In this document: piece after piece, positions 41,355-45,692 of the stretch
How the letters are laid out: each line of letters starts with the position of its first letter
Position numbering within the stretch: the stretch's first letter is position 1
Assembly (NCBI GenBank): GCA_024802545.1
Contig: CP103416.1
Coordinates: 992,001 to 1,056,000 of the forward strand
Length of the DNA: 64,000 nucleotides
Reading direction: 5' to 3'
Source: SAR92 clade bacterium H455
Lineage (GTDB): Bacteria > Pseudomonadota > Gammaproteobacteria > Pseudomonadales > Porticoccaceae
Position numbers and translations under genes: made by a program
The notes under the pieces: model-generated
What the model was told of the DNA's origin: nothing
Database searches by the model: none
What the model saw: the letters and a program-made list of their open reading frames with translations, nothing else

Positions 41355-43007
41355 ATGTCAGCTAAAGAAGTGAAGTTTGGCAGCAGTGCTCGCCAAGGAA
41401 TGTTGGACGGTGTAAACATCCTCGCCAACGCCGTAAAAGTAACTCTAGGTCCCAAAGGCCGCAACGTAGTTTTAGACAAGTCATTCGGTGCCCCTACCGT
41501 CACTAAAGATGGCGTATCTGTAGCCAAAGAAATTGAGCTCGCAGACAAGTTCGAAAATATGGGCGCGCAGATGGTTAAAGAAGTGGCTTCCAAAGCCTCT
41601 GACGAAGCCGGTGACGGCACCACTACTGCAACTGTTTTGGCTCAGTCTATTATTATCGAAGGCCTCAAATCTGTAGCTGCAGGTATGAACCCAATGGACC
41701 TCAAGCGTGGCATCGACAAAGCTGTTGTCGCTGCTGTTGCTGAAATCGCAGCACTGGCTAAGCCTTGCTCTGAGTCTAAAGAAGTGGCCCAGGTGGGTAC
41801 TATCTCTGCCAACAGCGATGCGGACATCGGTGACATTATTGCTGAAGCTATGGACAAAGTTGGTAAAGAAGGCGTGATCACTGTTGAAGAGGGCTCTGGT
41901 TTCGATAATGAGCTGGATATTGTTGAAGGTATGCAGTTCGATCGCGGTTACCTCTCGCCTTACTTCATCAACAACCAAGAGAACATGAGCACTGAGCAAG
42001 AGAGCCCATTTATTCTCTTAGTTGACAAGAAGATCTCTAATATTCGTGAACTGCTGCCACTGCTGGAAAATGTTGCTAAAGCTGGCAAGCCGTTAATGAT
42101 TATTGCTGAAGACGTTGAAGGCGAAGCTCTCGCCACTCTGGTTGTTAACAACCTCCGCGGCATAGTTAAAGTGTCTGCCTGTAAAGCACCTGGCTTCGGC
42201 GATCGTCGCAAGGCAATGCTTGAAGATATCGCCACATTGACTGGCGGTACAGTGATCTCTGAAGAAGTAGGTCTTGATCTTGAGACTGCTACTCTTGAGC
42301 ACCTGGGTACAGCTAAGCGCATCACCATGACCAAAGAAGCCACAACTATTGTTGACGGCGCTGGCGATGCAGCTGTGATCGGTGCTCGCGTTAAGCAGAT
42401 CCGCGCACAGATCGAAGACACCAGCTCAGACTACGACCGTGAGAAGCTTCAGGAGCGCGTAGCCAAGTTGGCTGGCGGTGTTGCAGTGATCAAGGTTGGT
42501 GCAGCCACTGAAATGGAAATGAAAGAGAAGAAAGCTCGCGTTGAAGACGCCCTGCACGCAACTCGTGCTGCGGTTGAAGAAGGCGTGGTACCTGGCGGTG
42601 GTGTTGCTCTGGTTCGTGTACTGCAGAAGATTGCAGGCACTGTTGGCGACAACAACGATCAAACTGTGGGTGTGGGCATTGCTCTGCGCGCCATGGAAGC
42701 GCCACTGCGTCAGATCGTAGAAAACGCTGGCGGAGAAGGTTCCGTAGTAGTCGACAAAGTTAAGTCTGGCAAAGGTAACTACGGTTACAACGCTGCGACT
42801 GGCGAATACGGCGACATGATTGCCATGGGTATTCTCGATCCAGCCAAGGTTGCACGTACTGCTCTGCAGGCCGCTGCTTCTATTGCTGGTCTGATGATCA
42901 CCACTGAAGCCATGGTTGCTGATGCACCTAGCGACGCTCCAGCTGGCGGCGGTATGCCAGATATGGGCGGCATGGGCGGCATGGGTGGTATGGGCGGCAT
43001 GATGTAA
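41355..43007 (+). CDS. groL: Chaperonin GroEL
   Basis: ATP-driven folding cage. 550 residues: [60 protein letters not shown] (ATP site), the apical domain, [25 protein letters not shown] and the Gly-Met tail ending GGMGGMM. An AAAGGAA site precedes the ATG. The last 19 bases before and over the stop codon (42988-43006) are repeated at 45583-45601, so the 3' end has probably served as an attachment site for an integrative element. Confidence 0.98.
42988..43006 (+). repeat. Left copy of 19-bp repeat in groEL 3' end (candidate attL)
   Basis: GTATGGGCGGCATGATGTA, covering the last codons and part of the stop of groEL. The partner at 45583 differs at one base. The flanks on the two sides differ, as expected for attachment-site duplication. 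Confidence 0.7.
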
Positions 43008-43041
43008 GCAAGCTGCTTAAAACCTAGTAAGTCTCAAGAAG

Positions 43042-43072
43042 GCCCGCAAGCCGAGTGTTTGCGGGCTTTTTT
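43042..43072 (+). terminator. Intrinsic terminator after groEL
   Basis: GCCCGCAA (43042-43049) pairs with TTGCGGGC (43059-43066), followed by TTTTTT. Confidence 0.9.
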
Positions 43073-43134
43073 ATTGCCTGCTTGTCTTGTTTAGTCCTTT
43101 ACTGTCCCAGTAAATAGCAGGGTGTTTAGGGTTT

Positions 43135-43147
43135 AATAAGGGGTATC
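43135..43147 (+). repeat. AATAAGGGGTATC, left copy of a second islet-flanking repeat
   Basis: Matches AATGAGGGGTATC at 45522-45534 in 12 of 13 bases, just inside the two 19-bp copies. Might be an older or inner attachment repeat, or an integrase arm-type site. Confidence 0.35.
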
Positions 43148-43180
43148 GGCTGAATCGCATGTTTGAATGTTTGGTTGTAG

Positions 43181-43692
43181 CGAACATTCAAAATCATTTC
43201 ATTAGCCTGGTGGGAACAGCAAGAGTCCTCGTGGTCTTCTGATCACGCAAAGAAGGTAAAACGATGGATCGAGCAAGAGTTGAAGTCTATCGGTAAGCTG
43301 TCGGTTGATGCTATCGATCAAGGGCATATTACGGAAGTGATGTTGTCAATTGAGAAAGGAGGTCATCCTCGCAAAGCTCCCGTTATACTCTCGGTGATCA
43401 ACCGTATTTTCGGTTATGCACTGGCTCACCGGTTTACACGTAATAATCCAGCTCAAGGTCTACCCCTTAGCGATATTCTTAAACCCATGCCGATATGGCA
43501 AGCCACTATCTAAAAACGTCATGACCAACCTGCTGAGAAAACTCAGTTATTCTGCTGATGTGATGTCGGCTCATGGGTTCAGAGCTACGGCATCCACTAT
43601 CTTACATAAGCAGGGCTGACTATCTCGAAGCGGTGCGTGATGGTGCTGATGTGGTGTCAATAGGAGCGAAGGCAGGAGAGGACTTGATTTAA
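43181..43692 (+). pseudogene. P4-type tyrosine integrase relic (three frames, internal deletions)
   Basis: Frame one (43208-43513) reads WWEQQESSWSSDHAKKVKRW, then IGKLSVDAIDQGHITEVML and NRIFGYALAHRFTRNNPAQG, which is the SAM-like core-binding half of a P4/CP4-57 integrase. Frame two, from about 43487, reads KPLSKNVMTNLLRKLSY and DVMSAHGFRATASTILHKQG, the box II region with the HxxR motif. Frame three (43615-43692) reads ADYLEAVRDGADVVSIGAK and stops, the usual integrase tail. Missing are the N-terminal arm-binding domain, the first catalytic Arg/Lys part and the segment with the catalytic Tyr. It cannot be active. Confidence 0.85.
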
Positions 43693-43736
43693 ATAGCTAA
43701 CTATATGTTTTACTTGTATGGATGTATTTCAATTAT

Positions 43737-43773
43737 ATCGACATAACAGCCTGATATGTCGATGTGATCGACA
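43737..43773. promoter_or_regulatory. Three TGTCGAT half-sites upstream of the ATPase gene
   Basis: ATCGACATA (43737-43745) and TATGTCGAT (43755-43763) form a perfect inverted repeat. A third half-site ATCGACA (43767-43773) forms a second, tighter palindrome with the middle one. This looks like an operator for a dimeric repressor. Further on, CAATTAGACGGTAATATA and CAATCAGACGGTAATGTA form an imperfect 18-bp direct repeat (about 43818-43858). Confidence 0.45.
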
Positions 43774-43874
43774 CGTTAAAATTTAAGCATTTTACTTAGC
43801 GCCCTTTTAAGTTAGGCAATTAGACGGTAATATAGCAGTCAATCAGACGGTAATGTAACCAGCATCTGGACGCT

Positions 43875-45180: not shown

Positions 45181-45237
45181 ATGTTTGAACAAACTTTTAA
45201 AAATATAGATGATGTGCTCTGGAAAGAGGCCGGTTGA
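45181..45237 (+). pseudogene. hsdM: Type I restriction methyltransferase hsdM, N-terminal remnant
   Basis: ATG at 45181 opens MFEQTFKNIDDVLWKEAGC and meets a stop at once. This is the conserved N-terminus of many type I DNA methylase (HsdM) subunits. All of the N6-methylase domain and the rest of the hsd genes are gone; the sequence jumps into a winged-helix tail at 45233, which suggests one large deletion. Confidence 0.75.
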
Positions 45238-45346
45238 ATTAACCGGAGCAAACCAGAATACGCTCAAAGTTAGGTTGCGTGAGCTGGTGAATGCAGGGCG
45301 ACTTCAGCGTCATGGCAAAGGGCGAGCAACTTGGTATAGCAGTTAA
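45233..45346 (+). pseudogene. C-terminal winged-helix remnant of an unidentified protein
   Basis: The frame reads VELTGANQNTLKVRLRELVN, AGRLQRHGKGRATWY and Ser-Ser-stop, a winged helix of the type found at the C-terminus of Fic/AlbA-like or RecG-like ATP-binding proteins that travel with type I restriction operons. It has no start and is joined out of frame to the hsdM remnant. Confidence 0.6.
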
Positions 45347-45361
45347 TTGGCTGAATCTTAA

Positions 45362-45469
45362 GTGTCTTTTAGAGTTATGGAAATAACGGGGTTATCGCGC
45401 TCAACAATTTATCTGGAGATTGCCAAGGGGAAAAGGGCAACAGTACCTCAAAGATCAATTCCATTGTAA
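45362..45469 (+). pseudogene. AlpA-family regulator fragment
   Basis: VSFRVMEITGLSRSTIYLEI followed by AKGKRATVPQRSIPL and a stop. The V-x-x-x-TGLSRSTIY helix-turn-helix is that of AlpA/prophage excisionase-type regulators of P4-like islands. It is about half the usual 65-70 residues and the C-terminus is not AlpA-like, so it is decayed. Confidence 0.7.
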
Positions 45470-45521
45470 ATGTGTCTGATCAAGCATGAGTCAGTACAGC
45501 TTAAGTGATCAGGTGGGGGAT

Positions 45522-45534
45522 AATGAGGGGTATC
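45522..45534 (+). repeat. AATGAGGGGTATC, right copy of the second islet-flanking repeat
   Basis: Partner of 43135-43147 with one mismatch; lies between the AlpA relic and the right 19-bp copy. Confidence 0.35.
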
Positions 45535-45582
45535 AGGTTGGCAAGTTGAGTGTATAGCTAATTAAATCAAATAGTTAAAAAT

Positions 45583-45601
45583 GTATGGGCGGCATGCTGT
45601 A
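45583..45601 (+). repeat. Right copy of the groEL 19-bp repeat (candidate attR)
   Basis: GTATGGGCGGCATGCTGTA, 18 of 19 bases identical to 42988-43006. It is not part of a gene here. The reading frame that begins at 45585 owes its MGGM start to this copy and is not a real gene. Confidence 0.7.
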
Positions 45602-45660
45602 TTTGCCCCTTAAACTGTTTTTTATAGTCGATTCGAACTTGTTTTATAAAGCGCAAAGAA

Positions 45661-45692
45661 GAGCCCCCGCAGATTGCTGTGGGGCTTTTTTT
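45661..45692 (+). terminator. Terminator without a gene, probably the original groEL terminator
   Basis: AGCCCC (45662-45667) pairs with GGGGCT (45681-45686), extended by an inner CAG/CTG pairing, then a run of seven T. No gene ends nearby; it lies 60 bases after the right repeat copy, about the spacing between the groEL stop and its present terminator. Confidence 0.7.

Follow-up and report, generated by a model that had tools for sequence, protein, structure and literature searches.

The window analysed here is a stretch of 64,000 nucleotides from SAR92 clade bacterium H455, whose genome consists of a single contig of 2.96 Mb. It contains an intact groEL gene, and 19 bp over the end of this gene (GTATGGGCGGCATGATGTA, 42988-43006) recur at 45583-45601 with one mismatch, as noted in the preliminary description of this DNA. 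The two copies enclose a small islet, which as a 3-kb query matched only once in the genome. The features of the locus are as follows:

41355..43007, + strand: groEL, an intact open reading frame, whose last 18-20 bp form the attachment-site core
42988..43006, + strand: putative attL core, consisting of the groEL tail and stop, 18/19 identical to the right copy and identical to the attP core of the circular relative L046
43008..43147, + strand: left arm of the element 3' of groEL, homologous to L046 2030-2169 and to L126 102-241
43036..43072, + strand: predicted element-borne terminator now 3' of groEL (43036-43075 folds at -23.6 kcal/mol, z -6.3)
43129-43147, + strand: left arm repeat (..AGGGGTATC), within the left arm
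43179..43692, + strand: integrase relic in three pieces (43179-43493, 43496-43618, 43613-43692), placed by nucleotide identity to L126 and by the junctions
43875..45110, + strand: open DUF4143/AAA_14 ATPase gene of the candidate defence family PDC-S01 (PADLOC E=3e-158; 411 aa)
45181..45343, + strand: remnants seen by six-frame reading, namely a possible HsdM start (45181-45237) and a winged-helix piece (45209-45343)
45373..45433, + strand: AlpA relic, 92% identical in nucleotides to the intact alpA region of G280
45432..45601, + strand: right arm of the element with arm repeat (45516-45534) and putative attR core (45583-45601), 97% identical to the right end of the G280 element
45602..45849, + strand: DNA that originally followed groEL, including its displaced native terminator (45655-45692), recognised by homology to G031

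As the preliminary description had concluded from its 18/19 identity, the repeat is unlikely to have arisen by chance. The next-best match to the 19-mer in the whole window reached only 14/19 (both strands), and among 300 shuffles of 43008-47500 (first-order Markov) the best match was 15/19, obtained once. The core was found at all 29 same-genus groEL loci examined, and its exact form ATGGGNGGNATGATGTAA occurs in 189 of 369 genomes of the class. The repeats flank the islet and one of them restores the 3' end of the target gene, as is expected of an integrative island, and the interpretation of the two copies as attL and attR of a decayed element holds. A tolerance of the Gly-Met tail of GroEL to variation had been offered as a reason for this choice of site; because the core restores the last groEL codons exactly, this explanation is not needed. 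No tRNA gene was found in the window, and no Rfam family reached its gathering score between 40000 and 48000.

Most of what lies between the two cores is fragmentary. The integrase relic beside the left copy was recognised correctly from the outset: 43280-43510 matches Phage_int_M (E=9e-9), and the relic is 74% identical over 103 residues to the intact integrase of L046. Compared with the latter it lacks the N-terminal domain, about 107 middle residues and a stretch ahead of the C-terminus, with the tyrosine region. The intact integrase of L125 comprises arm-binding, core-binding and catalytic domains (PF13356, PF22022, PF00589), of which the window copy keeps only the core-binding domain and part of the catalytic domain; with these losses it should be inactive, judging from its family. 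Two of the pieces are 99% and 98% identical in nucleotides to L126 622-936 and 1259-1381, and the deletions relative to L126 lie at 43178/43179, 43493/43496 and 43613-43618, the last junction coinciding with a 6-bp repeat, GGGCTG. The AlpA relic near the right copy could likewise be substantiated (Pfam AlpA for 45362-45463, E=4e-4 and 20.6 bits, just below the curated cutoff of 21); this regulator is intact in G280 (E 8e-20) and L046 (E 9e-10). The hsdM remnant of the preliminary description could not be confirmed: an 18-codon piece at 45181-45237 resembles the start of HsdM and may be such a remnant, and the Pfam winged-helix match of the adjoining piece is weak (best E 0.005); both pieces are also remnants in L126. 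Both ends of the islet retain the arm repeat AGGGGTATC (43139 and 45526). The one intact gene of the preliminary description, the ATPase gene with AAA_14 and DUF4143 domains, is indeed open and shares 405 of 411 residues with its L126 counterpart. The 25 synonymous and 6 non-synonymous changes between the two (dN/dS 0.068) point to purifying selection, a large part of which may have acted before the decay; PDC-S01 may be kept for defence.

An uninterrupted version of the site is found among close relatives. A search with the groEL 3' end matched 53 of 56 genomes (own genome included), and in the closest other genome, G031, whose groEL 3' end is 95% identical, the stop codon runs straight into sequence 77% identical to window positions 45583-45829, on a contig that ends inside the intergenic region. 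This sequence includes the terminator at 45661 and lacks the one at 43042, which is the empty site that had been predicted. Among 29 same-genus loci, 25 show the same gene downstream, 180-750 bp from groEL, compared with 2.84 kb in the window; three of the others have no neighbour in the available stretch, and G030 carries a 6.7-kb insert. In two loci (L007 of G018 and L006 of G017) groEL and the next gene are 650-750 bp apart, where about 200 bp is usual, and by eye the insert in L007 holds a repeat-like palindromic stretch. The integrase relic had no match in the 34 other same-genus genomes searched, and donors are thus known only from other families.

The joined form of the attachment site is represented by L046, an IMG/VR contig and the sole match to the integrase relic in the viral_contigs collection; tblastn of the relic against phages and plasmids (E 1e-5) gave no match. 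The first and last 103 bases of the 7,436-bp contig L046 are identical, which makes it a circle of 7,333 bp, and it encodes a full-length integrase, whereas the window copy lacks catalytic parts. Just upstream of this gene lies GTATGGGCGGCATGATGTAA. To the right of the core L046 is homologous to the left junction of the window (42986-43147), and to the left of the core it is homologous to the right junction (45515-45601 within the right arm). To judge from its sequence, the L046 core with both arms joined is what an uninserted attP must look like. Scanning viral_contigs for the groEL core returned 24 stretches including L046; 11 of the other 23 also held a groEL match, and none of the 23 matched the L046 integrase at E 1e-5. 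No groEL match was seen at 55 further viral integrase loci (L047-L101), many of whose contigs start at the integrase.

The preliminary description had also proposed looking for full-length islands at the same point and for a family of integrases adjacent to groEL, and both exist. G280, a single-contig genome of the same order, carries a complete element of 15,650 bp at the groEL 3' end. Two metagenome-assembled genomes add L125 (OB6), whose 7,603-bp element lies at the groEL 3' end with both of its ends in a single contig, and L126 (B19_G6), in which a full-length integrase lies directly 3' of groEL on an element cut by the contig end; these were the two integrase relatives found in a scan of the genome collection, both directly behind groEL. 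When the L046 integrase served as query at E 1e-90, a cut-off that leaves more distant integrases (about 40% identity) out of reach, two matches were obtained among 390 order genomes and three among 369 class genomes, two sets that overlap a little. All five matches lie directly 3' of groEL, in G184, G280, G637, G496 and, by its coordinates, OB6 again, and the integrases of G184, G637 and G496 are full-length. The right end of the G496 element is on another contig, where this arm repeat was again recognised by eye, and in G637 a second core is found at a contig edge. All close integrase relatives found (six genomes and the circle) are at groEL or carry its core. In a tree with 19 outgroup rows, the relic groups with the seven full integrases in a single clade (100/100) on a long stem; this outgroup was chosen by us as 20 loci, one of which (o_L042) was dropped by the program, and the rows o_L098 and relic are partial. 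For 17 of the 20 outgroup loci 420-700 bp of upstream sequence was available, and a tRNA gene was found there in five. We did not count G672, whose two cores both sit at contig starts and are followed by identical first bases, and in which 6 kb beside each core held no match to the clade integrase. Beside the right end of G496 lies a large ORF (L165 97-1638, G496:C157) that looks restriction-modification-like by eye.

Relative to the G280 locus, the islet is a series of seven collinear pieces: 42900-43149 (81%, groEL end and left arm), 43179-43493 (98%), 43496-43618 (98%), 43613-43711 (95%), 43727-45348 (97%), 45373-45433 (92%) and 45432-45601 (97%). Six of these lie inside the element at 92-98% identity, and three further short, weak matches are non-collinear or overlapping. 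About 11.9 kb is missing between the fifth and sixth pieces (G280 7174-19055), and some 13 kb has been lost in all relative to G280. Divergence from L126 is uneven, with 98-99% identity for the integrase pieces and 87% for 45108-45336, which indicates that the ancestor was not L126 itself.

Two kinds of cargo occur on elements of this clade. L125 carries a terminase small subunit (terS) gene and a primase-helicase match, L046 carries terS and AlpA-like genes, and G184 has a terS gene; profile tests of L046 and G184 covered terS, and the L046 primase-helicase and the L125 AlpA-like ORF were judged solely by the similarity of L046 and L125 to each other. From their sequences these gene sets look satellite-like. 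L125 further encodes a protein (12164-12775) with a sub-cutoff match to the T7 capsid assembly family (E 0.004). Defence genes are found in L126 (PDC-S01, type I restriction-modification, KwaA, KwaB) and in G280 (PDC-S01, type I restriction-modification, SIR2, HerA), and among the G280 ORFs no terS or replication genes were seen by eye. The last gene of L126 appears reverse-transcriptase-like (YVDD, by eye), and its HsdR gene (3295-6405, B19_G6 island) is split into two ORFs, which may reflect a broken gene or an assembly error. The combination of terS and replication genes that marks phage satellites of the PICI type was not seen in a six-frame reading of the islet, which matches the defence-type islands of G280 and L126.

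Taken together, the empty site, the attP, the complete islands, the collinear pieces and the single integrase clade make it highly probable (roughly 0.95) that the islet is, as first proposed, a decayed mobile island at the groEL 3' end, and that it was inserted there by a P4-type integrase through attP and attB. An island with such a tyrosine integrase would have entered by recombination between the groEL tail in its attP and the groEL 3' end (attB). Because the attP carries the last codons, the stop and a terminator, the groEL protein would have been kept and a new terminator gained, and the old groEL tail and its terminator would have been pushed to the right end of the island. The ancestral island would have carried defence genes, like the islands of G280 and L126, and would then have lost about 13 kb, including catalytic parts of the integrase and most of the cargo. 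The resulting islet should be immobile by its own means, and the PDC-S01 ATPase gene is the only one in it that is still open.

That the islet descends instead from a satellite-type element with terS and primase-helicase, like L125, would fit the shared integrase clade and att system and the terS genes of L046, L125 and G184. However, no remnant of terS or primase was seen in a six-frame reading of the islet, PDC-S01, alpA and the right arm match the defence-type G280 or L126 at 92-99%, and the relic groups with these two in the tree, so that we regard a satellite origin as quite unlikely. It is still harder to attribute the second core to homologous recombination or segmental duplication of the groEL end. 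A precedent exists in G030, where a 147-bp duplication of the groEL end (97%) surrounds the 6.7-kb insert and no integrase was found among insert ORFs of at least 90 aa, in a stretch that is partly masked; yet the repeat in the window ends at the attP core, both sides continue into arms that are joined in L046, and the same arms bound the complete islands L125 and G280. By eye, the G030 insert (L032, duplications at 1873-2019 and 8725-8871; G030:C137) codes for an AraC-like regulator and for a large protein with winged-helix/ATPase-like features. The low-complexity GGM codons at the end of groEL would speak for a fortuitous repeat, or for a Gly-Gly-Met coding fragment of unrelated origin, but the shuffles fall well short of the observed identity, the right arm is 97% identical to an element end, and the site is empty in G031, which leaves this reading a negligible probability. 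Comparison with the L046 attP led us to reject both gene duplication and a GGM coding fragment as the source of the right copy.

Insertion of a P4-type island would also account for the two terminators of the locus. A correction is due here: the terminator at 43042, directly after groEL, belongs to the element, and the original terminator of groEL is that at 45661. The displaced native terminator folds at -20.8 kcal/mol, and the element hairpins of the window, L046 and L125 fold at -18.9 to -23.6 kcal/mol. A search by terminator pattern listed a terminator at 45665 and not that at 43042, which was revealed by folding. A terminator motif, written from the elements themselves, is present in all eight elements, is lacking from all 18 native groEL ends taken from the order, and was found in viral_contigs only in L046. 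It does not occur on the element side alone, as G280 has it also to the right of attR (L142), possibly left behind by another element that had used this site earlier. Over the 80 bp after the stop, mean identity is 77% among elements (28 pairs), compared with 55% between elements and same-genus natives (168 pairs) and 55% among natives; the natives, drawn from 21 of the 29 same-genus loci, include at least one shortened sequence (lowest pair 0.025), and the ranges touch at 0.65, which is both the minimum among element pairs and the maximum among element-native pairs. The new terminator presumably works in the cell, and we hypothesize that it shields the integrase from groESL transcription. A more far-reaching, speculative and rather improbable scenario is that one groEL-specific clade provides a shared dock in Gammaproteobacteria, at which satellites with terS and larger islands with defence genes exchange cargo between shared att arms, that their own terminators shut the integrase off from the very active groESL transcript, and that terminator failure during stress or phage infection could switch on excision.

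In islands with P4-type integrases and in PICIs of Gram-negative bacteria, the integrase gene adjoins attL and reads inward, alpA and defence or satellite cargo are present, and the att core lies in a conserved 3' end, typically of a tRNA or tmRNA gene; here, in contrast, the target is groEL and an element-borne terminator lies behind a protein gene. The earlier view of groEL as a less usual target has to be qualified, since groEL 3' ends are already known targets of staphylococcal PICIs (SeCISE48 and kin; PMC8125051, available text). As described there, those elements are mobilised by phages, and the last 18 bp of groEL overlap the att site and leave the gene unaltered. The islands described here have integrases with the Arm-DNA-bind_3/Phage_int_M/Phage_integrase arrangement and Gammaproteobacteria as hosts, and some of them carry defence genes with no terS seen. 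The PICMI of Vibrionaceae, likewise small satellites of marine bacteria, carry int, alpA and primase and occupy a conserved protein-gene locus, but they integrate next to fis (PMC10803314) and not at groEL; also unlike PICMI, L046, L125 and G184 carry terS, and the L125 primase-helicase had no DUF3987 or DUF5906 match at E 0.1. Mycobacteriophage Bxb1 uses groEL1 as attB, but with a serine integrase and a short core, and it disrupts the gene (PMC8092301, in the text available). We rejected Charybdis elements, reported in the accessible text without terminase and with likely archaeal hosts (PMC12324425), and a further report whose available text concerns plasmids and not a groEL attachment site (PMC9769718). 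Among the matches listed for the open-licence PubMed Central literature, as far as their text was available, no groEL-site island of Gammaproteobacteria was recognised. Islands docked at groEL are thus known in staphylococci, and what is new here is the Gammaproteobacteria variant: a clade of integrases directed at one protein gene of high conservation, for which attP, attB, attL and attR are available from natural sequences and which links satellite-like elements and defence islands through one attachment system. More such islands can be found by scanning groEL 3' ends in any genome. In an IMG/VR contig of another lineage, a tyrosine-recombinase-like ORF (L105 8859-10114, by eye) that has no match to the L046 integrase at E 1e-5 faces groEL and ends 41 bp from its 3' end. 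This is another possible use of groEL as a target, and together with the staphylococcal PICIs it suggests that the conserved groEL 3' end may have been chosen repeatedly.
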